A stretch of 64,000 bases of DNA from Planktothrix paucivesiculata PCC 9631. GTDB taxonomy: Bacteria; Cyanobacteriota; Cyanobacteriia; Cyanobacteriales; Microcoleaceae. Positions 925-42,418 of the stretch are shown in pieces; within the stretch, counting starts at the first letter, position 1; each line of letters opens with the position of its first letter. The notes under the pieces were generated by a model. That model was not told where the DNA came from. It saw only the letters and a program-made list of their open reading frames with translations, and ran no database searches. The position numbers and the translations under genes are program-made. Location of the stretch: positions 175,218 to 239,217 of the forward strand of contig NZ_LR735018.1 of NCBI RefSeq assembly GCF_900009265.2, read 5' to 3'.

Positions 925-1308
925 TTACTCATGACTGACCACTGAATTGAGTAGTTCTTGAATATGACTGGCAAGGAATTTAGGTTGAAAGGGTTTGGTT
1001 AAATAGCAAGCTGCCCCGGCGGCGATCGCTTCAGTTCGACTTTTTTCATCACCTTTTGTGGTGAGAATCACAATCGGGGTATCGTGATAACTCGGATGTG
1101 CCAAAACAAATCTTAGAACTTCTAAACCGTGCATATCGGGCATATTCAGATCTAAAATCATTAAGTCGAAGGGAGCAATTTCCATTTTTTCAATCGCTTC
1201 TAAACCATTCTCAGCTTCACTAAAACTGACATCAGTTAAATCTCGTAAGGAGACGATGACCATTTTTCGCATCGTTGCCGAATCATCAACGACTAAAATA
1301 CGTTTCAT
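925..1308 (-). CDS. CheY-like single-domain response regulator
   Basis: This is a stand-alone receiver domain of 127 residues. The N-terminal acidic pair is in ILVVDDS, the phosphoacceptor Asp is in LMILDLNMPD, the switch Thr is in VILTTKG, and the conserved Lys is in YLTKPF. No output domain follows, so it should act by protein contact, as CheY or PilG does. The ATG at 1308 is chosen because AAGGAG lies 8 nt upstream. A frame reaching back to 1350 adds 14 residues unlike the family. It precedes the CheA-type Hpt gene on the same strand and probably forms a phosphorelay with it. Family confidence is high; the motility role is inferred. Confidence 0.9.
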   Translation of the reverse strand: MKRILVVDDSATMRKMVIVSLRDLTDVSFSEAENGLEAIEKMEIAPFDLMILDLNMPDMHGLEVLRFVLAHPSYHDTPIVILTTKGDEKSRTEAIAAGAACYLTKPFQPKFLASHIQELLNSVVSHE

Positions 1309-1792
1309 AACACGAACTCCTTGAGGGGATAGGGCACAAATAGTTTGCATTTTTATCGCTCCTATATTGGCATAGTAGATGCCGATTTGGGTATGTTTAC
1401 CATCCGGTCATAACTAGGAAGTTAATCAGATGGGTTTTTTAACGTCTCCCCTCACCTATTTTCAGGGATCAAGACTAGAAAAAGACTCTGATTGCTCCTG
1501 TTTTAAAAAATTCTGCTTGGGTCGATTTTGCCCGCTATTAACGGGGACAGCTTTCCCCCTAAAAATCACGATGTTTCAATTATAAATCAACTTATTCGAT
1601 AAAATATCAACCCTGTTTGAAAAGTTAACAGTTCACCAGTTTCCATCGGACTAAATTTGTTCTGGAATTCCCTTTTGGGACATTAAATCCCCCTAGTTGG
1701 CTAATCTTGTCTTCTCCGAGGATGATGAAGTCGCGTTAAACTGTAAATAGAGGTAATCAAAAACCGTACACCGTCAAAGGAAGAACAGCGTC
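1309..1792. other. Non-coding spacer between cheY-like gene and vipp1
   Basis: This 484-bp divergent spacer is AT-rich with several short A/T tracts and must carry promoters for both flanking genes. No ORF with coding character, tRNA or strong terminator hairpin is visible. Confidence 0.5.
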
Positions 1793-2554
1793 ATGGGATT
1801 ATTTGATCGCATTAGCCGTCTTGTCAGAGCCAATTTGAATGATCTGGTTAACAAAGCCGAAGACCCAGAGAAGATTCTGGAACAGGCGATCATTGATATG
1901 CAGGAAGATCTGGTGCAGTTGCGTCAGGCCGTTGCTCAAGCGATCGCCACTCAAAAACGCAGTGAACAACAGTATAACCAAGCCCAGTCCCAAGCAAATC
2001 AATGGGAGTCTCGCGCCAAGTTAGCCCTGCAAAAAGGGGAAGAAGGGTTAGCTAGAGAAGCCTTACAGCGCAAAAAAGGCTACACGGAAACGGCTAATAC
2101 CATTAAATTGACTCTGGATCAACAATTGGGTCAGGTGGATGCCCTCAAGCGCAATTTAATTCAGTTGGAGAGCAAAATTTCCGAAGCCAAAACCAAGAAA
2201 AATATGCTCAAAGCCCGGGCGCAAGCAGCTAAGGCCAATGAGCAGTTACAGGGTTTATTGGGGGGTATTAATCCCAGTGGAGCGACCGCAGCCTTTGAAC
2301 GGATGGAAGAAAAGGTGATGCAGTTGGAAGCCCGTTCCGAAGCGGCCAAAGAATTGGGGGGTTCGGATTTTGAAAGCAAATTTGCCGCCTTGGAAGCCGG
2401 AAGCGATGTGGATGATGAATTAATGGCCCTGAAAGCTGCGATTTCTGGTGGCCCCGCTCCCCACTCCCTACCCCCGGGAGAAACAGCGGCAACCCCTAAT
2501 GTTCCTGTGGATGATGAGTTGGAAAAGCTGAAAGAGGAGTTAAAGAAAATGTAA
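1793..2554 (+). CDS. vipp1: Vipp1/IM30 membrane-remodelling protein (PspA family)
   Basis: The 253-residue protein begins MGLFDRISRLVRANLNDLV, the amphipathic helix that binds membranes in PspA/Vipp1 proteins. A long, almost uninterrupted coiled coil follows (about residues 25-215). The C-terminus carries an extra short helix (VDDELEKLKEELKKM) separated by a Pro/Ala-rich linker. That extension distinguishes thylakoid-associated Vipp1 from bacterial PspA. The DDEL motif occurs twice, before and after the linker. Vipp1 forms ESCRT-III-like rings and supports thylakoid biogenesis and membrane repair. It stands alone without psp regulators. Assignment rests on family architecture and is strong. 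Confidence 0.93.
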   Translation: MGLFDRISRLVRANLNDLVNKAEDPEKILEQAIIDMQEDLVQLRQAVAQAIATQKRSEQQYNQAQSQANQWESRAKLALQKGEEGLAREALQRKKGYTETANTIKLTLDQQLGQVDALKRNLIQLESKISEAKTKKNMLKARAQAAKANEQLQGLLGGINPSGATAAFERMEEKVMQLEARSEAAKELGGSDFESKFAALEAGSDVDDELMALKAAISGGPAPHSLPPGETAATPNVPVDDELEKLKEELKKM

Positions 2555-2872
2555 GCGTGAATTCCTTGGTTTTATCGGGTTTGGGCTTTTTGTCAGGGGT
2601 CAAGGGTAACGGAGTGTTACAGTCGCCATTGACTCCCAAAGTTTGATGGAAAGCCCTTGTCTGGAAATAGGGTAATGGGTAATGGGTAATGGGTAATGGG
2701 TAATGGGTAATGGGTAATGGGTAGTGGGGAATACTGCTATTTGGAAAAAACTCCGGTTCCTTAAGTCATCTTTGAAAATTTGGTTGTATAGTGATAATCA
2801 GTTTGATCCGGTACTTATACTTAATAACCGAATCGGCTCCTGCATTTAATTTTTATCCCCCAGTTTAACTCA
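2555..2872. other. Spacer after vipp1 containing a heptamer array
   Basis: This 318-bp gap holds the GGGTAAT tandem array at 2670-2725 and otherwise shows no ORF or RNA gene. Confidence 0.6.
2670..2725. repeat. Tandem heptamer repeat (GGGTAAT)n
   Basis: Seven perfect GGGTAAT units are followed by one GGGTAGT unit. The same heptamer recurs at 29606-29652 and, on the opposite strand, near 61490-61514. Such short tandemly repeated repeats are common in filamentous cyanobacteria. Confidence 0.95.
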
Positions 2873-3124
2873 ATGATGGCTAAGGTACGTTTACTGATTC
2901 TTAGTTCCTTTGCGGCGGGCTTTGGGCTTTGCTCGATTGTTTTTTCGGTTTTTACGATGATTTCGGAATTCAATTTTTCCACGGTATTTAGGTCTATTTT
3001 AACCTTGGGATTTTTTGTAATTAATATTTTATTTACTTTACATTATTACGGATTAATTTTTAAAGAATTTAAGTTAATTAATAAGATTAAAGCACAGCTT
3101 AAACGATTTAATTATAATTTTTAA
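2873..3124 (+). CDS. Small two-helix membrane protein, function unknown
   Basis: This is an 83-residue protein. A hydrophobic N-terminal helix (LLILSSFAAGFGLCSIVFSV) and a second hydrophobic segment (about residues 41-62) suggest two membrane passes. A short basic, Lys/Phe-rich tail (KIKAQLKRFNYNF) follows and probably faces the cytoplasm. Two ATG codons in a row start the frame and either could be used. It stands alone between vipp1 and the glutaredoxin gene. I do not recognise the family. The frame has AT-rich codon use like its neighbours, but the evidence for expression is only the ORF and its membrane-like composition. Confidence 0.55.
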   Translation: MMAKVRLLILSSFAAGFGLCSIVFSVFTMISEFNFSTVFRSILTLGFFVINILFTLHYYGLIFKEFKLINKIKAQLKRFNYNF

Positions 3125-3207
3125 TTAAAGTTTAGGCGATCGCCACCATAAAATTAGAAATCGGTTAAAGTTAAAATTAAAGTCTGTTTATCCCCAGGAA
3201 TTTACTT

Positions 3208-3522
3208 ATGTTAGATGCTCTTAATGCTTTATTCGGTCGCCATCCTGAACGAAATCAAGCGACTGTTGAAATTTATACCTGGCAAACTTGTCCCTATTGT
3301 ATTCGGGCTAAATTATTATTATGGTGGAAAGGAGTTAATTTCACCGAATATAAAATAGATGGAGATGATGCCGCCCGAAATCAAATGGCTGAACGGGCGA
3401 AGGGAGGGCGCACAGTTCCCCAAATCTTTATTAACGATCATCATATTGGAGGTTGTAATGATCTTTATCAATTGGATGGAGAAAAAAAATTAGACCCCCT
3501 ATTAGCTGAACCTGCTTTATAA
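3208..3522 (+). CDS. grxC: Glutaredoxin (GrxC type)
   Basis: A dithiol glutaredoxin of 104 residues. The active site is TCPYC at about residues 27-31, inside the opening beta-alpha unit (VEIYTWQTCPYCIRAKLLL). The cis-Pro motif is in GGRTVPQIFIN and the glutathione-binding GGCNDLYQL motif follows, so all features of GSH-dependent reduction of protein disulfides are present. It is about 15-20 residues longer than minimal glutaredoxins because of an N-terminal extension (MLDALNALFGRHPERNQ). It should act in the cytosol and can also serve as a hydrogen donor for ribonucleotide reductase. It stands alone. Assignment is secure at family level. Confidence 0.92.
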   Translation: MLDALNALFGRHPERNQATVEIYTWQTCPYCIRAKLLLWWKGVNFTEYKIDGDDAARNQMAERAKGGRTVPQIFINDHHIGGCNDLYQLDGEKKLDPLLAEPAL

Positions 3523-3533
3523 GTTGTGGAGCC

Positions 3534-3580
3534 GTTGTTGGGCTTGAGCCAACTCTTGATTAGGGTTAAAGCCCAACAAC
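3534..3580. repeat. Inverted repeat TTGTTGGGCTT/AAGCCCAACAA, copy 1
   Basis: A 12-bp perfect inverted repeat (GTTGTTGGGCTT at 3534-3545 and AAGCCCAACAAC at 3569-3580) flanks a 23-nt loop just after the glutaredoxin stop codon. The same arms recur at 17006-17074, so this is a dispersed palindromic element and not simply a gene-specific terminator. It may still stop transcription here. Confidence 0.8.
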
Positions 3581-3701
3581 TTAGGGCTAAATATTTTTTT
3601 TGATTAACAAGACGTTAAATTGTGGCAAAAACAATATAAATTAATAGAGTAAGCAAATTGAGAAACTACAATTCATAATTTATATTCGTGGAGCAAAAGA
3701 T

Positions 3702-5771
3702 ATGTCAGAAACTGTCAGAAACTTCCGTAATGTTGCCATTGTTGGCCCCTATTTAAGTGGTAAAACCACACTCCTAGAGAGTATTTTATCGGTGAGTGGA
3801 GCTATCTCTCGCAAAGGAACAGCTAAGGAGACGAATAGGGTTGGGGATAGTTCTCCAGAAGCGAAAGAACGAAATATGAGTGTAGAAGTGAATGCCGCTA
3901 GTACCGAATATGGCGGCATTCGCTTTACCTTTTTAGACTGTCCGGGTTCTGTAGAATTTGTCCAAGAAACCTATAATGCTTTAATTGGTACGGGATTAGC
4001 TATTGTGGTTTGTGAAGCTGATCCCGGTCGGATTTTAACCCTATCTCCCCTGTTCAAATTCTTAGATGATTGGGAAATTCCCCATCTAGTTTTTGTTAAT
4101 AAAATGGATCGGGTTTGTACCAATGAGGAACGCTGCGTTAATAGTTTTACCGAAATCCTAAATGCTTTAAAATCCGTTTCCACTCGCCCCATTATTCCCC
4201 AACAATATCCCATTGGTCATAGTGAACAATTAGTCGGTTTTATTGATTTAATTACGGAACAAGCCTATCATTATCATTCCGGCGCTGCTTCCGATCCCGT
4301 GCCCCTTCCCGAGTCTTTAAAAGAGGCTGAACACGCTGCCCGTCAAGCCATGTTAGAGGAGTTGGCGAACTTTGACGATCATTTATTAGAAGAACTATTA
4401 GAAGAAATTGAACCGCCTCAAGATGAAATTGTTAAAGATTTAAAAATGGAATTGGGGGCGGATTTAATTGTCCCGGTCTTAATTGGGGTGGCCGAACAGG
4501 ATCAGGGGGTGCGGGCGCTGCTGGATGCGTTAGTTCGGGAAGCTCCAGAACCAACAATTACCGCAGAACGTCGGGGGCTAAAATCCTCGGAAGGCTTGCC
4601 CATTGCCCAAGTTTTGAAAACCTATTATACCCCCCAAGGCGGTAAACTTTCCCTGGTGCGGGTTTGGCAGGGGGAACTCACCGAAGGCATGACCTTAAAT
4701 GGGGTACGGCCCGGGGGAATGTATCGGATGACCGGACAACAAACCCAAAACGTACAAACGGCACAAACTGGGGAAATTGTGGCTTTGGGACGGATGGAAG
4801 GAATTCAAACCGGAGATACCTTAACTTCCGAACCCAATGGGTTAAAAAATCCCTTGCCCAAAGCAAGTTTATTACCTGCGGTTTATGGATGGGCAATTAC
4901 CCCGGAAAATCGCAAGGATGAGGTTAAAATTAGTGCGGCTTTATCTAAAATGTTAGATGAAGATCGGGCATTAAATTGGGAACAAAATAGTGATACCCAC
5001 GAAATTATTTTATGGGGTCAAGGTCAAATTCATTTGCAAGTAACTTTAGATCGGTTACGGCGTAAATATAATTTACCTATGGTTTCCCATGTACCCAGTG
5101 TTCCCTATAAAGAAACTATTCGCAAAACCACTAATTCCCATGGTCGCTATAAACATCAAAGTGGGGGTCATGGACAGTTTGGAGATGTGTATTTAGATAT
5201 TAAACCTCAAACCCGGGGCGAGGGATTTAATTTTGGTGAAAGCATTGTGGGGGGTGTGGTTCCCCGTCAATATATTCCGGGGGTGGAAACGGGAGTTCGA
5301 GATTATTTAAACCAAGGGCCGTTAGGGTTTCCCGTAGTAGATATCGCGGTGACATTAACGAATGGTTCCTATCATGCGGTTGATAGTTCGGAACAGGCTT
5401 TTAAACAAGCTGCTCGGTTAGCGATGCAGTCGGGAATGGAGAAATGCGAGCCAATTTTATTGGAACCCATAACATCGGTTGAAATTTGCGCGCCCAGTGA
5501 TTTTACTTCCCAAATGTTTCAGTTAATTACCGGACGTCGGGGGCAAATTTTAGGTTATGAACCGATGTCGGACTGGAAGGGATGGGATAAGATTTCTGCT
5601 TATATTCCTCAAGCAGAAATGCAGGATTTAATTGTAGAATTGCGTTCTTTAACTTTAGGAGTGGGTTATTTTAATTGGCAATTTGATCGTTTACAGGAAG
5701 TTCCTGAAAAGTTAACGGAACGGATTTTAGCAACGGTGAAGGGAAATGGCAATGGTAATGGGAAATCATAA
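3702..5771 (+). CDS. Elongation factor G-like GTPase (EF-G paralogue)
   Basis: A 689-residue translation-factor GTPase with the EF-G domain order. The P-loop is GPYLSGKTT at residues 15-23, the switch II motif is LDCPGS (Cys replacing the usual Thr) and NKMD gives guanine specificity. A beta-barrel domain II and C-terminal domains IV and V follow (SGGHGQFGDVYLDIKP). The switch I segment reads ERNMSVEV instead of the ERGITI of true EF-G, which marks it as the divergent paralogue found across cyanobacteria. The C-terminus ends in a GNGNGNGKS tail. It lies alone, not in the str operon with rps12/rps7/tuf, again arguing against the housekeeping EF-G. Its function could be a specialised translocase or ribosome-recycling factor; this is unresolved. 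Confidence 0.85.
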   Translation: MSETVRNFRNVAIVGPYLSGKTTLLESILSVSGAISRKGTAKETNRVGDSSPEAKERNMSVEVNAASTEYGGIRFTFLDCPGSVEFVQETYNALIGTGLAIVVCEADPGRILTLSPLFKFLDDWEIPHLVFVNKMDRVCTNEERCVNSFTEILNALKSVSTRPIIPQQYPIGHSEQLVGFIDLITEQAYHYHSGAASDPVPLPESLKEAEHAARQAMLEELANFDDHLLEELLEEIEPPQDEIVKDLKMELGADLIVPVLIGVAEQDQGVRALLDALVREAPEPTITAERRGLKSSEGLPIAQVLKTYYTPQGGKLSLVRVWQGELTEGMTLNGVRPGGMYRMTGQQTQNVQTAQTGEIVALGRMEGIQTGDTLTSEPNGLKNPLPKASLLPAVYGWAITPENRKDEVKISAALSKMLDEDRALNWEQNSDTHEIILWGQGQIHLQVTLDRLRRKYNLPMVSHVPSVPYKETIRKTTNSHGRYKHQSGGHGQFGDVYLDIKPQTRGEGFNFGESIVGGVVPRQYIPGVETGVRDYLNQGPLGFPVVDIAVTLTNGSYHAVDSSEQAFKQAARLAMQSGMEKCEPILLEPITSVEICAPSDFTSQMFQLITGRRGQILGYEPMSDWKGWDKISAYIPQAEMQDLIVELRSLTLGVGYFNWQFDRLQEVPEKLTERILATVKGNGNGNGKS

Positions 5772-35579: not shown

Positions 35580-38500
35580 TTAGATTTCGTCCCAACCACT
35601 GACACCAGAAGACATCACATAACTGGTGACGCTGGCTTCAAAGAAATTGGCTTTAGTATGGGCTTCTTTTTTAGTATCCGAGAAGCGTTCTAAATGGGTA
35701 TAGGGACTTTTACTGTACTTTTTATCGGTATAAAGAGGCTCTAAACCGATAGACCGTAACCGAATATTGGCTAGATATTTGGTGTATTGTTCGGTACTAT
35801 ATTCCGTGATTCCCAAGATATTATTTCCGACAATATGATTCGTCCATTTACATTCATGTTCAACGGCGGTATTGTTAGAGTCGATTAAGAAGTTACCCTC
35901 CTAACCTCTCCTTCAGAACCGTGCATGAGACTTTCACCTCACACGGCTCCTTGATAATTCCATCCTTGTTATGGATACGATTTAAAACGGTTTATTGTCG
36001 TAATTCTTGATTAAAGAACCATCATTAGCCGTTTTTGTGTCGTGACAATGTTTATGCAAAAGTTGCAGGTTATCATAGGTGTCTTTACCACCTAATGATT
36101 TGGGTTTTATATGGTCAACTTCTACACTGTCTGTACTTGTAAAATACAAATCACAGTTAAGACAAATACCCTTTTGTTTCTTGATTAATTTTGAAACCCT
36201 GTTTGGGGTTTCTGGATATTCGCCCCGTCGTTTACTCCAATAAATCCAGTTTCCATCAAACGGACTAGCTTTACCCTTAACCTTTGTATGCCTGGCGATT
36301 GGTGTACTGCTATGGGTGGTTAATTTTAATCCGTCTTCTGTACTGAAACACCAATTTTTGTTTCCTACTGTTCTCCAGTATTTGTCTTTATTGATGTTCC
36401 CTTTTCCCCTTGTTTTTGCCCAGGCTCTTAACTTGTCATAAGTTAGTGCATCCACCTTATTAAAGGTTTCTTTACTGACCACCGTTGAGTAATAATTTGA
36501 CCACCCTCTAATAATTGGATTCAGCTTACTAATTAAAGCAGCTTGTGGGGCGTTCTTATGAGTTTTTATTACTTCAGCTATTTTGACAAGATGAGTCTTA
36601 ATTTTGGCTTTTGAGGGTGTGATTAGTGTTGTAAAACCTAGTGGTATTCCATTGCTACTGATTGCACTTCGGTAGTTTCCTACTTTATGTTGTTGTATAT
36701 GGAACCCCAAGAACTCAAACCCAACACTTCCCTCAATTTCGTTAAGAGTGTGGGTTAGCCTTGTTTTACTGGGTTTTAATTCCAGTCCCATGTCACCTAA
36801 CCAATCATCAATTATTTCTTGACATTTTTTGACAACACTTAAATCCTCATGGATTATTACAAAGTCATCAGCGTAACGGATTAGACTAAGGGATTTACGA
36901 TTGGTTCGTTTACCTCCTTTTAGAGTCTCTGCATATCGCTTAACTCTTTCTTCCATACCATGTAGGGCAATATTCGCAAGTAAGGGTGAAATAATCCCTC
37001 CTTGTGGTGTACCATCATTGGTAGGAAAAAGTTCTTTTCCGTCCATGTACCCTGCTTTTAGCCATGATTTTACTAATCGGCTTAAAGTAGGGTATGTGTG
37101 TATTTTGTCAATTAGTGATTTATGGTTTATGCGGTCAAAGCATTTGGCAATATCAGCATCTAGCACATATTTGGCTTTTTGTTTAATACTGATAAATATT
37201 GCATCAATCGCATCATGACAGGAACGTCCTGGTCTGAAGCCATAACTATTTGGCTCGAATTTAGCCTCCCATTCTGGTTCTAACGCTAGTTTGACTAACG
37301 CTTGCAATGCACGGTCGTTGATTGTGGGTAATCCTAATGGACGGGTTTCTGTTGAACCAGGTTTAGGTATTTCAACTCTGCGAGTTGGTTTAGCTTTATT
37401 AGTTAACTTTAGTCGTCCTACAAGGTTTATACGTTGCTTTGGGGTTAGAGATTTAACTCCATCCACTCCCGCCGTATTTTTACCTTGGTTATCTTGTGTT
37501 ACCCGACGTACAGCGATACATTTTGCTGACCAAGACCTAATCAGGGTCTTTTGAAGTTTGCGAACTGCTTTCACATCGCCTCGTCCACTCGCTTGAAATA
37601 TTCTCTTTTGCAACTTAAAAGTTACCTTTTCTAGCTTGCGCCAGTTAAGGTCTTTCCACTCCACCGTCTGTTTTTTATTCAGCGTTTTAGATATATTCAT
37701 TGCTACTTGTTCTATTTCTTTGGAATTACCGAGTATCTGTCAGCATATCCCTTGCATTACCAAGGGCATTCGCTTTTGATACCATCCCTTCCCTAACTAT
37801 CATTCGTTAGCTACTTACTGGTTATCGACCTTTTACCAGAGATGATTAGGGGTTACTTCGTTCCGATTACACATTTGTTTGAAGTCTTTAGCGTGATGCT
37901 ATCCACCGGGTTTATTGGGCGGTGCTTATAAGTCGGATGTTCAACCGCTTATGCCCTATCCTTGCCTTTTGGCTTGGTGTTATCAGGTTTATTCCTGATT
38001 TAGCCATTACACCATTCTTACGTTTCGATGGTTCAGACACATCTTTGCTTACGCTACGCATGGACTTCTTGCTCGGTAGTTACTGGATTTGGCTTCTAGT
38101 AGTTCTACCTTTTAACCCCGCTTTAATCTGTTGGTTGCTACCCAAACAAACTAGGGGTTATGCTTTCACCTGGGCACTTGAGGGATGGGACTTACAGCCA
38201 CAGCTGTTCACCCATAAATGTAATCAGTTGTCACTAACTGCCTTAGCAGCTAGGCTAACCTTCCCGTAAGCCTTTCGACTTACTTTGGGTTAAACGAATC
38301 GCACGAACATTTCATAAATCTGATCAACGGAGTGAGTAAACACTTCCATGGCTTCAGGAATTAATTTCTGGAATAACCGAACATGAGAAAGTTCATCCTT
38401 AATATTCAACAAGGGTCGTTAGTCCTTGCCCGTTCTGGAGAAGAACTGCTGAAAGTCACCTTTCAGAATAGACTATATCATCTTCCTAATAGGAAGCCCC

Positions 38501-41500
38501 CCGTTTCGTAGCACTTGCTACTACGCTTTTACCGCTAGTCGTTGCACCTTTAGAATCAATAACTTCCCAAGCATCAATCCATGTTTTTATAAATATATAA
38601 TGACAGGGGAAAGTTAATTTTTCTACTTGGCTCAGGATTGTCTCAATTGAGAGTTTCCCTGAATTAGAGGGGTTTTCGATTCACGTTACCGTGAAAAGCC
38701 GCTATGAATTTAACGGTTAATCATTTTGAAAATATCAGCAGATCCCGGCATTAACATCCGTGAAGCTAAATTGTAGAAGTAGATAACGCTACTACCCATC
38801 CTTTCAGTAGGGGCTAGAACATACCATTATCTTTGTCTCAATTCAAAATAGGTAAAACAATTGAGTTAAAGATACTCACCCTCTGTTCGTTGAACCTTCT
38901 CCTTTTATGCGGAGCTTGGCTGCTGATTACCCATTGTAAAGATTAGATCCCTTGCGGCTTCCAATCAATCCTTTAACTTTTTTCTGCTCTCGCACAGCCG
39001 CGCTTATCATTTCTAATTTCGCTTTGGTATAAAGGCTTTAGGGAGTTCCAGCAATTTGATGAGTTGTCACTAACATCTCGCGGTGCTAGGGGGCCACTAA
39101 TTTAACCCATTGTAGAAGTAAATCCCTTCTAACATATAGTCCGCTAATAGGGAAATAAAGTAATTTTCCAGGGTGGGATTGTTAGAGTCGATAGGAGCGT
39201 TACCACTCCTACCTCTCCTTCAGAACCGTGCTTGAGACTTTCACCTCACACGGCTCCTTGATAATTCCACCTTTGTTATAGGTACGATTCAAAACGGTTG
39301 ATTGTCATAATTCTCAACTGTTTTAGTTAAAGAACCATCACTAGCCGTCTTTGTGTCGTGACAATGTTTGTGTAGAAGTTGAAGGTTATCGTAGGTATCT
39401 TTACCACCTAACGATTTAGGTATAATATGGTCAACTTCTACAATATCTGTACTTGTAAAATACAGACCACAGTGAGGACAAATACCTTTTTGTTTCTTAA
39501 TAAGTGTTGCCACTCTTTTAGGAGTTTCTGGATATTCGCCTCGTCGTTTACTCCAGTAAATCCAGTCTCCATTAAACGGACTAGCTTCACCTTTAATCTT
39601 TGTATGCCTTACGATTGGCGTACTGCTATGGGTGAGTAATTCTAATCCATCTTCTGTACTGAAACACCAATTTCTGTCATCTACTGTTTTCCAGTATTTG
39701 TCTTTATTGATGTTCCCTTTTCCCCTCCTTCTTGCCCAAGCTCTTAACTTGTCGTAAGTTAGGCGGTCAACCTTTGAGAAGGTTTCTTTACTAACTGTTG
39801 TTGAATAATAGTTTGACCAACCTCTAATAATAGGGTTCAGCTTACTAATTAAGGCAGCTTGAGGTGCGGTTTTATGGGAGTCTATTACTTCAGCTATCTT
39901 GACAAGATGAGTCTTTATTTTGGCTTTTGAGGGTGTGATTAATGTACTAAAACCTAGTGGTATTCCATTCGGGTTGTTGGCACATCGGTAGTTACCTACT
40001 TTGTGTTGTTGTACATGGAATCCTAAGAACTCAAATCCAACATTCCCATCAATTTCATTGAGGGTGTGGGTTAGTTTTGTTTTACTTGGTTTTAATTCCA
40101 ATCCCATGTCACTTAACCAGTCAGCGATTATCTCTTGACACTTTTTGACTACGTTTAAATCCTCATGGATTATTACGAAATCATCAGCGTAACGGATTAG
40201 ACTAAGAGCCTGACGATTTCTCGCTTTTTTCCCTTTTAGAGTTTCGGCGTATTGCTTAACTCTTTCTTCCATACCATGTAGGGCAATATTCGCAAGTAAG
40301 GGTGAAATTACCCCTCCTTGTGGTGTACCATCATTGGTAGGAAAAAGTTCTTTTCCGTCCATGTACCCTGCCTTGAGCCATGTCTTGATTTGACGGCTTA
40401 ATGTAGGGTATGTGTGTATTTTGGAGATTAATGCTTTGTGGTTTATGCGGTCGAAACATTTGGAGATATCAGCATCAAGTACATATTTGGACTTGTATCT
40501 AATATTCAAAAATATTGCTTCTCTTGCATCGTGGCATGAACGTCCTGGTCTAAAACCATAACTGTTTGGCTCAAATTTAGCCTCCCATTCTGGTTCTAAC
40601 GCTAGTTTTACTAACGCTTGCAATGCGCGGTCGTTGATTGTGGGTATTCCTAATGGACGGGTTTCGGTTGTACCAGGTTTAGGTATTTCAACTCTGCGAG
40701 TTGGTTTAACTTTATTGGTTAACTTTAATCGTCCTACCAAGTTCATACGTTGCTTCGGGGTTAGGGATTTAATTCCGTCCACTCCTGCCGTATTTCGTCC
40801 TTGGTTATCTTGTGTTACCCTGCGAACCGCGATACATTTAGCACTCCAGGAATTAATCAGGGTCTTTTGAAGTTTACGAACTGCTTTAACATCGCCTCGT
40901 TCACTCGCTCGAAATATGCGCTTTTGCAACTTAAAAGTTACCTTTTCCAGTTTGCGCCAGTTAAGGTCTTTCCACTCCACCGTCAGATTGTTCTGCGTTT
41001 TAGATATATTCATTGCTACTTGTTCTATTTCTTTGGAATTACCGAGTATCTGTCTGCATATCTTTTGCCATTACAGCAAAGCATTCGCTTTTGATACCAT
41101 CCCTTCCCTATATATCGTTCGTTAGCTACTTACTGGATTTCGACCTCTCCAGAGATATATAGGGGTTACTTCGTTCCGATTACACATTATTGAAGTCTTT
41201 AGCGTGATGTTATCCACCGGGTTTATTGGGCGGTGCTTATAAGTCGGAAGGAAAACCGCTTATGCCCTATCCTTGCCTTTTGGCTTGGTGTTTATCAAGT
41301 TTTTAACCTTGATTTAGCCATTACACCATTACAATTAACGATGATTCAGATACATCTTTGCTTGCGCTACGCATGGACTTCTTGCTCGATAGTTACCAGT
41401 TTTGGCTACCAGTAGTTCTACCTTTTAACCCCGCTTTAATCTGTTGGTTGCTACCCAATCAAACTAGGGGTTATGCTTTCACCTCAGCACTTGAGGGGTG

Positions 41501-42418
41501 GGACTTAATTCACCGAATTTCACCCACAAATGTAATCAGTTATCACCAGTCTTAATAACTGGGTTAACCGTCCCATAAGTCTTTTTCAACTTATTTTAGG
41601 TTAAACGAATCGCACATCCATATATTGTTGATAAATCCCGGCAATGAATTCACAGCGATCGCGCAAAACACTATCGGTTTTCCAAAACTCATAAACAAAG
41701 GTTCTCCGATCGGATGGAATAATCGTTTCAATCATGTATTGATAACTCTGATTGTGCATCGCCTCCTGAGAAGTTTGTTCCGCCATACAAAGACTAATTT
41801 CTGGGGCAGTTACACAACTTTTGAGGTGAGGAATATTGCAGGTTTGAACAGAATCTAAGAACGTTAAATAACTTAAAATTCCATCAAACGCCCAACGTTC
41901 ATCGGGAGTTAAGTTAACATAATCCACGACATCCTGAGTAATATCTAACTTTTCAGGTCATTGGTGTTCAGTTAGATTCGCTAAGTCTAACCCGCTTGAT
42001 TTAAGCTGCCATAAGTCACCTTATGGATCGGACTATCTCATCATCCTTTTAATATAAAAAGGAGTCCCCCGCTTCGACTGTCAATCGCTTACAGCCTACT
42101 CCCTTATAGGGTTAGTCTCTACACCTTCTACTATTTTTAATAGCAGCTTGGCACGGTATTGTCTGTCACCGAAAGAAATTTTTTTTATAGATAATAAAAA
42201 TTTCTCTTTCACAGATCCAGAGTTTCACCGTTTTCAAGGGATTTAGTCTGAGCTACCTAATTAACCCAGAAATTCTCGCGCATTTGTTTATACAAACCCA
42301 CCGCCCAGGAATAACGCACATCATTTAATTGCATTAAATTTGTGGTTTCCCCAAACCAAATAGAACGATGATTAATATCATCATTTCCATTCGGATTGAA
42401 AATCGGATTTATGGGCAT
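35580..42418 (-). CDS. nrdB: Ribonucleotide reductase class Ia beta subunit, split by five introns
   Basis: The gene has six exons: 42264-42418, 41616-41958, 39104-39180, 38713-38794, 38305-38397 and 35580-35873. They sum to 1044 nt and translate to 347 residues without a stop, beginning MPINPIFNPNGND and ending SGVSGWDEI. Iron ligands are visible: Asp in LTFLDSV, Glu and His in EAMHNQSY, Glu in YMLEGIYF, and Glu/His in DELSHV. The radical Tyr is the Y of HNQSY. NrdB houses the diferric-tyrosyl cofactor and works with NrdA to make dNTPs. It is not a pseudogene: all junctions restore the conserved frame. Translation requires removal of three group I and two group II introns. It is downstream of nrdA in an apparent operon. 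Confidence 0.95.
35874..38304 (-). mobile_element. Group II intron 2 in nrdB, with RT/maturase ORF
   Basis: A 2431-nt intron. The 5' end is GTGCG at 38304 and the 3' end is AC before the exon codon AAT. Domain V is at 35916-35949 and has the standard fold (GAGCCGTGTGAGG, GAAA-type loop, pairing CACGGTTC). Domain VI follows. The maturase gene lies in domain IV (35982-37700); domains I-III occupy about 37701-38304. The 5' exon ends ATGTTC, encoding Met-Phe in QIYEMF, and the next exon starts AAT (Asn). Confidence 0.93.
35982..37700 (-). CDS. Group II intron-encoded reverse transcriptase/maturase (intron 2)
   Basis: A 572-residue IEP. The RT domain starts near residue 60; conserved blocks include AGVDG and PLGLPTINDRALQALV, and the catalytic YADD is at residues 276-279 (SLIRYADDFVI). 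The X/maturase domain has IIRGWSNYYS. The C-terminus carries an HNH endonuclease with two CxxC-type zinc knuckles (CLNCDLYF and HKHCH around VDHIKP). It should promote splicing of its own intron and retrohoming. It is closely similar to the IEP of intron 1 over its whole length, with scattered substitutions. Start ATG at 37700. Confidence 0.95.
   Translation of the reverse strand: MNISKTLNKKQTVEWKDLNWRKLEKVTFKLQKRIFQASGRGDVKAVRKLQKTLIRSWSAKCIAVRRVTQDNQGKNTAGVDGVKSLTPKQRINLVGRLKLTNKAKPTRRVEIPKPGSTETRPLGLPTINDRALQALVKLALEPEWEAKFEPNSYGFRPGRSCHDAIDAIFISIKQKAKYVLDADIAKCFDRINHKSLIDKIHTYPTLSRLVKSWLKAGYMDGKELFPTNDGTPQGGIISPLLANIALHGMEERVKRYAETLKGGKRTNRKSLSLIRYADDFVIIHEDLSVVKKCQEIIDDWLGDMGLELKPSKTRLTHTLNEIEGSVGFEFLGFHIQQHKVGNYRSAISSNGIPLGFTTLITPSKAKIKTHLVKIAEVIKTHKNAPQAALISKLNPIIRGWSNYYSTVVSKETFNKVDALTYDKLRAWAKTRGKGNINKDKYWRTVGNKNWCFSTEDGLKLTTHSSTPIARHTKVKGKASPFDGNWIYWSKRRGEYPETPNRVSKLIKKQKGICLNCDLYFTSTDSVEVDHIKPKSLGGKDTYDNLQLLHKHCHDTKTANDGSLIKNYDNKPF
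38398..38712 (-). ncRNA. Group I intron 3 in nrdB (ORF-less)
   Basis: A 315-nt intron. The 5' exon ends in T (CGT, Arg) and the intron ends in G (ATTAAG) directly before GAT, as group I introns require. Core elements are visible on the minus strand: P-like CAGGGAAACTC, Q-like AATCCTGAGCCAAG, R-like GCAACGACTAGCGG (38532-38545) and S-like GATATAGTC (38471-38479). It inserts between the Arg and Asp codons of MINR|DELSHV, next to metal ligands. No homing endonuclease ORF. Confidence 0.88.
38795..39103 (-). ncRNA. Group I intron 2 in nrdB (ORF-less)
   Basis: A 309-nt intron splitting the Phe codon of EGIYFYNG(F). The 5' exon ends GGGTT and the intron ends GGG before TAGTAGC. Core elements on the minus strand: P-like AAATTGCTGGAA, Q-like AATCAGCAGCCAAG, R-like CAACGAACAGAGGG (38879-38892) and S-like GGTATGTTCTAG (38814-38825). 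The R and S parts can pair through GAACA/TGTTC to form P7. The junction is the only one that restores the family Phe. No ORF. Confidence 0.82.
39181..41615 (-). mobile_element. Group II intron 1 in nrdB, with RT/maturase ORF
   Basis: A 2435-nt intron with 5' GTGCG at 41615 and 3' AC before AAT at 39180. Domain V is at 39223-39256, identical in type to that of intron 2 apart from one base. The maturase ORF (39289-41013) sits in domain IV. Domains I-III fill 41014-41615. It interrupts YMD|NPTLENYF of the beta subunit. The overall resemblance to intron 2 indicates a common recent ancestor and a copy event within one gene. Confidence 0.93.
39289..41013 (-). CDS. Group II intron-encoded reverse transcriptase/maturase (intron 1)
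   Basis: A 574-residue protein with the same domain order as the IEP of intron 2: RT blocks with YADD (SLIRYADDFVII), X domain (IIRGWSNYYSTTVSKE), and C-terminal HNH (ICPHCGLYF, VDHIIPKSLGG, HKHCHDTK). The N-terminus lacks one Lys present in intron 2 (SKTQNNLTV). Substitutions relative to intron 2 are scattered and no stop or frameshift is seen, so both copies look functional. It may cross-act on the other intron because domain V and core sequences are nearly the same; that is inference. Start ATG at 41013. Confidence 0.95.
   Translation of the reverse strand: MNISKTQNNLTVEWKDLNWRKLEKVTFKLQKRIFRASERGDVKAVRKLQKTLINSWSAKCIAVRRVTQDNQGRNTAGVDGIKSLTPKQRMNLVGRLKLTNKVKPTRRVEIPKPGTTETRPLGIPTINDRALQALVKLALEPEWEAKFEPNSYGFRPGRSCHDAREAIFLNIRYKSKYVLDADISKCFDRINHKALISKIHTYPTLSRQIKTWLKAGYMDGKELFPTNDGTPQGGVISPLLANIALHGMEERVKQYAETLKGKKARNRQALSLIRYADDFVIIHEDLNVVKKCQEIIADWLSDMGLELKPSKTKLTHTLNEIDGNVGFEFLGFHVQQHKVGNYRCANNPNGIPLGFSTLITPSKAKIKTHLVKIAEVIDSHKTAPQAALISKLNPIIRGWSNYYSTTVSKETFSKVDRLTYDKLRAWARRRGKGNINKDKYWKTVDDRNWCFSTEDGLELLTHSSTPIVRHTKIKGEASPFNGDWIYWSKRRGEYPETPKRVATLIKKQKGICPHCGLYFTSTDIVEVDHIIPKSLGGKDTYDNLQLLHKHCHDTKTASDGSLTKTVENYDNQPF
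41959..42263 (-). ncRNA. Group I intron 1 in nrdB (ORF-less)
   Basis: A 305-nt intron between the first and second base pairs of the Val53-region codon: exon 1 ends GGGT and exon 2 resumes ACCTGAAAAG, giving FWV|PEKLDI. The intron ends in G. Core elements on the minus strand: P-like AACGGTGAAACTC, Q-like AATACCGTGCCAAG, R-like GTAGAGACTAACCC (42109-42122) and S-like GAGATAGTCCG (42029-42039). No ORF. A boundary shift of one base is possible. Confidence 0.87.

Follow-up and report, generated by a model that had tools for sequence, protein, structure and literature searches.

The nrdB gene of Planktothrix paucivesiculata PCC 9631 is, with a probability of roughly 90%, a working gene that has been colonised by five self-splicing introns, three of group I and two of group II, and that yields a 344-residue NrdB, the small subunit of ribonucleotide reductase (the enzyme that supplies the building blocks of DNA), once its exons are joined. 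To our knowledge, it is rare for a protein-coding gene of a bacterium to contain more than one or two introns. The gene lies in the window, i.e., the whole 64,000-nucleotide stretch of DNA analysed here, which is part of contig C133 (NZ_LR735018.1) of a draft genome of 6.15 Mb in 184 contigs (97.5% complete; labelled G000). Intron classes, boundaries, reading frame, selection and relatives were all established computationally. The features are listed below, with insertion sites numbered along the spliced coding sequence (cds).

35580..42418, minus strand: nrdB, six exons with three group I and two group II introns between them
42264..42418, minus strand: nrdB exon 1, 155 nt, codons 1-51 and two bases
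41959..42263, minus strand: intron 1, group I, 305 nt, site cds 155, beside the Trp51 codon
41616..41958, minus strand: nrdB exon 2, 343 nt
39181..41615, minus strand: intron 2, group II, 2435 nt, site cds 498, GTGCG...TCTAAC
39289..41013, minus strand: protein encoded by intron 2, 574 aa, with reverse transcriptase, maturase and HNH domains
39105..39180, minus strand: nrdB exon 3 (corrected), 76 nt
38787..39104, minus strand: intron 3, group I (corrected), 318 nt, site cds 574, directly after EGIYFYNG
38713..38786, minus strand: nrdB exon 4 (corrected), 74 nt
38398..38712, minus strand: intron 4, group I, 315 nt, site cds 648, directly before the DELSH motif
38305..38397, minus strand: nrdB exon 5, 93 nt
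35874..38304, minus strand: intron 5, group II, 2431 nt, site cds 741
35982..37700, minus strand: protein encoded by intron 5, 572 aa, with reverse transcriptase, maturase and HNH domains
35580..35873, minus strand: nrdB exon 6, 294 nt including the stop codon
42559..44823, minus strand: nrdA, large subunit, uninterrupted, directly upstream of nrdB, 754 aa

The corrected exons (155, 343, 76, 74, 93 and 294 nt) form a coding sequence of 1035 nt for 344 aa, and the introns (305, 2435, 318, 315 and 2431 nt) take up 5804 of the 6839 nt, or 84.9% of the gene. An earlier note, made from the letters of this DNA, had placed nrdB correctly by coordinates and strand, with the right layout of six exons and the right classes and order of introns (I-II-I-I-II), as judged by cmscan and a frame check. 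Its estimate of about 85% intron also stands, as do its lengths of 305, 2435, 315 and 2431 nt; its third intron of 309 nt becomes 318 nt after correction, and its intron total of 5795 nt becomes 5804 nt.

On the minus strand, the group I model RF00028 (gathering score 50) matches intron 1 at 42009-42273 (66.9 bits), intron 3 at 38795-39113 (66.5 bits) and intron 4 at 38449-38722 (99.7 bits), while RF00029, the model of group II domains V/VI, matches intron 2 at 39181-39258 (65.0 bits) and intron 5 at 35874-35951 (63.7 bits). All five matches exceed the Rfam gathering score, with E-values from 1.3e-24 to 3.5e-10, so the covariance-model check that the earlier note had proposed came out in favour of every group I and group II segment. 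Group II introns begin with GUGYG and end with AY, and introns 2 and 5 both fit this pattern (GTGCG...AC); their encoded proteins score above the cut-offs of PF00078, PF08388, PF01844 and TIGR04416. In group I introns, the 5′ exon ends in a U that is paired with a G of the guide, and the intron itself ends in G. Both features are found in all three group I introns, in intron 3 with its corrected boundaries. The open reading frame list contains no ORF of 60 aa or more within introns 1, 3 and 4.

The boundaries of the third intron need correction, which makes the predicted NrdB product 344 rather than 347 residues long. As first drawn, the exons (155, 343, 77, 82, 93 and 294 nt) do sum to 1044 nt and leave an open frame of 347 residues; the claim that they rejoin exactly to an intact NrdB fails at one junction, where the joint reads YNGF-SSV-IYFYN and so brings in three additional residues, SSV. 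We compared this junction across 80 loci, of which 79 have a match over it (the 80th, by elimination L092, is split there). SSV is missing from all 79, YNGF running directly into IYFYN or variants of it, and the congeners without an intron at site 574 (G045, G048 and G049) likewise lack SSV. Because of this absence, the third intron appears to have been drawn 9 nt too short. Placing the 3′ splice site 9 nt downstream and moving the 5′ joint by one base, to the exon end GGGT, gives GGGT/TAAATTAG...GTAGTAGCG/TTATC (slashes mark the splice sites), with an exon-final T, an intron-final G and a coding sequence of 1035 nt. The corrected intron begins with TAA, as introns 1 and 4 do.

A 309-nt intron would instead leave SSV in a 347-residue NrdB as a small intron-derived scar. 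That joint also keeps the frame open and also has an exon-final T and an intron-final G, and since the guide could pair one base further, the 5′ splice site alone does not decide between 309 and 318 nt. We nevertheless consider such a scar quite unlikely, given the 79 covering loci without SSV and the 3′ end of the intron: TAGTNGCG ends 12 of the 14 listed site-574 introns, distant genomes included (TATT in the other two, G313 and G293), and only the shifted joint gives the canonical length.

With the 318-nt intron removed, the 344-aa frame aligns without gaps to 65 uninterrupted nrdB genes (from the 80 loci), and the spliced product exceeds the cut-offs of PF00268 (5.8e-68) and NF007184 (353.3 bits; cut-off 310). 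The motifs FLDS, EAMHNQSY, LEGIYFY and RDELSH are all present in it; we take these to be the metal and radical motifs, with a presumed assignment to residues of E. coli R2. The closest NrdB among the named records is that of Planktothrix sp. UBA8402 (L067; 97% identity in the best segment). Annotators should be warned that a split nrdB is easily reported as fragments or missed, because a profile search with PF00268 detected only two of the six exons.

Profile searches of the assembly located PF00268 at this locus only, as the two pieces, and PF02867 in the adjoining nrdA only; PF13597 (anaerobic ribonucleotide reductase, RNR) had no match in this 97.5% complete draft. The same three profiles found matches in 7, 11 and 6 of 14 named control genomes, respectively. 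A protein search returned six NrdB matches from the genome itself, all within this locus. No second small, large (NrdA/NrdJ) or anaerobic (NrdD) RNR subunit was thus found in the draft assembly, nor was the intact second nrdB that the earlier note had named as an objection to its own reading; as the assembly is a draft in 184 contigs, a second RNR could possibly lie in the missing sequence. The spliced coding sequence has dN/dS values of 0.007 to 0.070 against eight resolved congeners, which indicates that selection acts on the nrdB product and that purifying selection on the exons is strong. Since no other RNR subunit was found in the draft, exact splicing is probably obligatory. The earlier note's central claim, that a single and probably essential gene is interrupted by three introns of group I and two of group II, is supported by the covariance scores and by the finding of no other RNR in the draft.

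A gene that is 84.9% intron, with weakened guide pairing in intron 2 (described below), might also be a decaying pseudogene overrun by introns in a cell that relies on another RNR. This is very improbable in view of the absence of any other RNR from the assembly, the low dN/dS values, the open frame of all exons and the split state of nrdB in all ten genomes of the genus that were searched. Early stop codons were also scored: 49 of 59 introns reach an in-frame stop within six codons past the 5′ splice site, compared with 30% of random intron starts, copies at the same site not being independent of each other.

The EBS1 and EBS2 guide loops of the group II introns were located by eye on a five-copy alignment that included the same introns, which makes the resulting ranks somewhat favourable. 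In intron 5, EBS1 (GAACAT, 37937-37942) forms six of six pairs with IBS1 (ATGTTC), and with EBS1 and EBS2 combined its own site ranks first of 1020 positions of the coding sequence; the site-192 group II introns of the relatives G045 and G051 also rank their own site first of 1020. In intron 2, EBS1 (41248-41253) forms four of six pairs, the EBS2 loop (41331-41338) pairs, and the combined rank is 10 of 1020, while its homologue in G046 ranks its own site second. Given this incomplete EBS1 pairing and lower rank, splicing of intron 2 may be inefficient or may depend on different contacts, and its guide fit is the weakest point of the self-splicing reading.

Group II domain V has 10 matches in the genome, two of which are those in nrdB. 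As assemblers can be led astray by repeats, repeated group II copies might have been misjoined into nrdB. An artefact of this kind is highly improbable: G046 carries intron 2 at the identical base (cds 498), on a contig of 5.46 Mb; the guides of intron 5 fit site 741, which is occupied only in this genome among the stretches read, better than any of the other positions; and the copies in introns 2 and 5 are 87% identical to each other, not the same. CL-type group II introns are tied to cyanobacteria in passages of PMC8919778. Elsewhere in the genome, two domain V matches lie on the same strand at G000:C137:109440-112040, with starts 2523 nt apart, or about one intron length, a spacing that suggests tandem or nested group II introns.

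Among the group I introns, all 12 copies at site 155 show pairing between the guide and the six bases at the end of the exon. The P1 helix of intron 1 is CUGGGU/GCUCAG, with the internal guide sequence at 42248-42253 and two wobble pairs in this strain. P1 covaries with the exon at this site: in three of the 12 copies, a G-to-A change in the exon is matched by a C-to-T change in the guide. The P1 helices of introns 3 and 4 are short, with four continuous pairs including the U-G pair. For intron 4, the top window of our script (ACGGTAA) is without U-G, and the covariance alignment takes the GCGGC window.

Longer group I introns were found in relatives at all four group I sites, with ORFs of 177 to 297 aa (17 introns). 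Four of the five intron ORFs that were scanned contain a Pfam endonuclease (sites 369, 574 and 648), namely LAGLIDADG_2 at site 648 of G045, HNH_3 at site 648 of G046 and site 369 of G050, and GIY-YIG at site 574 of G051. The ORF at site 155 of G046 had no Pfam endonuclease, the only match being Cas12f1-like_TNB below the cut-off (17.8 of 26.3 bits); to the eye it is HNH-like, a likeness that we do not count as a result. The short group I introns of PCC 9631 look like introns that lost, or never had, an endonuclease. At site 648, G045 (L129) has LAGLIDADG_2 and G046 (L130) has HNH_3, the ORF of G048 (L132) being near-identical to that of G046. Since the parts that these introns have in common with intron 4 are 88 to 95% identical and the endonucleases differ, the sequences suggest endonuclease replacement at this site.

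Phage records with matching stretches numbered 12 for intron 1, 101 for intron 3 and 193 for intron 4, none of them covering 80% of the query; the intron 3 query included exon 4 and some flanking bases too, and the listed matches all fall within the intron. Two phage neighbourhoods were opened, in one of which the match adjoins an intron-associated endonuclease gene and in the other lies between two DNA polymerase III alpha annotations. Such shared stretches make intron movement through phages possible. Two more group I introns were observed in the genome, L168 (G000:C133:383148-383392) and L169 (G000:C112:196999-197248), and ARAGORN reported no tRNA at either.

Comparison with related strains, another check that had been proposed, removes the impression of a one-strain freak, nrdB being split in 10 of 10 searched genomes of the genus. 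There are five introns in PCC 9631, four in each of G045, G046 and G051, three in G048 and in G050, two in G047 and in G053, and one in G049 (genome 73% complete); G052 has one as well as a group II intron at which its contig breaks. Both classes occur together in seven of the ten (G000, G045, G046, G047, G051, G052 and G053). The spliced nrdB sequences of G045, G046, G048 and G051 are 97.0-97.6% identical in DNA to that of this strain and yet carry different intron sets, which points to recent gain or loss.

In the stretches resolved, group I introns are confined to four sites (cds 155, 369, 574 and 648), which are occupied in several families of the order. Group II introns were found at sites 82, 93, 100, 150, 157, 192, 204, 278, 498, 574, 741 and near 846, each occupied in one or two genomes among those read; the one near 846 is that of G052, put together from pieces, and the site-93 intron, which the script labelled "other", is matched by RF00029. 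Splicing in silico gave a coding sequence of exactly 1035 nt without stops in 26 of 32 stretches. The six stretches without a clean spliced sequence (G052, G208, G245, G282, G375 and G377) are not counted as support; G052 is broken at its group II intron, with the other half (L137) left out, and the 5′ part of G208, at a contig end, was not found. The Rfam search of further relatives covered 18 of 20 stretches (L151 and L159 were left out for size). With RF00028, the introns at site 155 reach 29.6 bits in G046 and 31.5 bits in G050, below the gathering score of 50, and those at site 648 of G116 and G242 have no RF00028 match listed at E <= 0.01; the group I class of these introns is assigned from their place, their ends and their alignment with same-site copies.

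Across the order, a NrdB match was obtained in 171 of 388 genomes, in more than one piece in 56 of the 171 rows. The figure of 56 is no exact count of split genes, as at least three of these genomes (G311, G332 and G372) also have a full-length match and the single-piece matches of G375 and G377 are partial. Among the 80 named loci, 67 have nrdB in one piece. Outside the genus, nrdB falls into at most four pieces (G160, G257 and G313), though very short exons may be missed, and no genome read exceeds PCC 9631 in its number of nrdB introns.

In the protein, the four group I sites correspond to NFW/V, NQS/Y, YNG/F and NR/DELSH, which presumably surround the metal ligands of R2, its radical Tyr and the Trp of radical transfer. 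Within 10 nt of these four sites, the DNA is conserved to a higher degree than at random positions (p = 0.02, based on 65 of the 80 loci); the ten group II sites tested do not stand out in this way (p = 0.18; sites 574 and near 846 lie outside the set). The earlier idea that RNR active-site codons are a magnet for such elements fits the group I introns only. As a candidate rule, a preference of both classes for conserved DNA was suggestive for group I and was dropped for group II on the same values.

We propose that five ribozymes fold within the nrdB transcript, which may be common to nrdB and nrdA. The small introns of group I, three in number, would cut themselves out with an external guanosine, the 5′ exon ending in U being held by the internal guide sequence and the intron ending in G, and the two group II introns would leave as lariats, probably aided by their own encoded maturases. 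Joining of the exons would then give a class I beta subunit of 344 residues. The probable ancestors of these ORF-less group I introns are introns that homing endonucleases carried into a few conserved sites. The group II introns would have come by retrohoming, the guide sequences of each adapted to its own site, and within the genus nrdB would keep gaining and exactly losing introns. Splicing in the cell, the order of events, the need for maturases and the direction of gain and loss are what we infer from these data. It seems unlikely that the five-intron state is used, in a regulatory sense, as well as tolerated.

Introns and inteins in cyanobacterial RNR genes are already known; what looks new is that a single bacterial gene contains five introns drawn from the two classes, with turnover between close species. 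A literature search by titles and the starts of abstracts, with subscription papers mostly outside its scope, gave no report, among the matches listed, of introns in Planktothrix nrdB, of cyanobacterial RNR genes that hold both classes, of any bacterial gene that both classes interrupt, or of one with five introns from the two of them. Passages of PMC12702839, PMC1995217 and PMC3984707 refer to the group I intron of Nostoc punctiforme RIR, likewise in a cyanobacterial ribonucleotide reductase gene; by these passages that gene has one intron, whereas nrdB here has five, three of group I and two of group II, and is split in each of the ten genomes of its genus that were searched. Introns in cyanobacterial, Bacillus and phage RNR genes, with more than 100 group I introns curated from RNR entries, are covered in passages of PMC1995217, PMC3984707, PMC12702839 and PMC2795772. 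A title among the references of PMC4649490 names a cyanobacterial RNR gene with inteins and group II introns, which resembles the present gene in having several intervening elements; unlike it, nrdB combines group I with group II introns, and its spliced frame is without insertion.

The phage RNR introns described in passages of PMC1995217 (T-even nrdB, Twort nrdE and SPbeta bnrdF) are also self-splicing introns with homing endonucleases in RNR genes, and introns 1, 3 and 4 have sequence stretches in common with phage genomes, several of them beside annotated homing endonucleases. Those are group I introns in phage genes, whereas the gene described here is chromosomal and holds both classes. 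Cyanobacterial LSU rRNA genes are similar in that they carry several group I introns per gene, some with endonucleases, according to passages of PMC1995217; nrdB differs in being translated, and group II introns are not named for LSU rRNA in those passages. An apparently sole, essential gene would here depend on the precise removal of five introns from its RNA by ribozymes of two unrelated types, and with different sets in close species, gain, loss and the exactness of removal can be traced in a single gene.

Several arrangements in the relatives were observed besides. In G051 (L135), a group II intron is inserted at cds 150, 5 nt upstream of a group I site (155) that has no intron in G051 and is occupied in six of the other nine genomes of the genus, PCC 9631 included; one intron may block another's target here. 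At site 574 of G293 (L147), a group II intron (1188-3734) abuts a group I intron (3735-4207), the order being exon GGGT, the group II intron (GTGCGG...TTTAAC) at the group I 5′ splice site, and then TAGATTAG. The group II intron probably must leave before the group I P1 helix can form, and the arrangement is possibly a mixed twintron in a bacterial gene. In a co-conversion test, sliding identity rises at site 574 in intron-bearing pairs, but it also does so against G049, which is without an intron there. Near nrdB of G377 (L158), a cobalamin riboswitch (RF00174, 59.9 bits) is located at 2746-2893 on the plus strand, opposite to that of nrdB.
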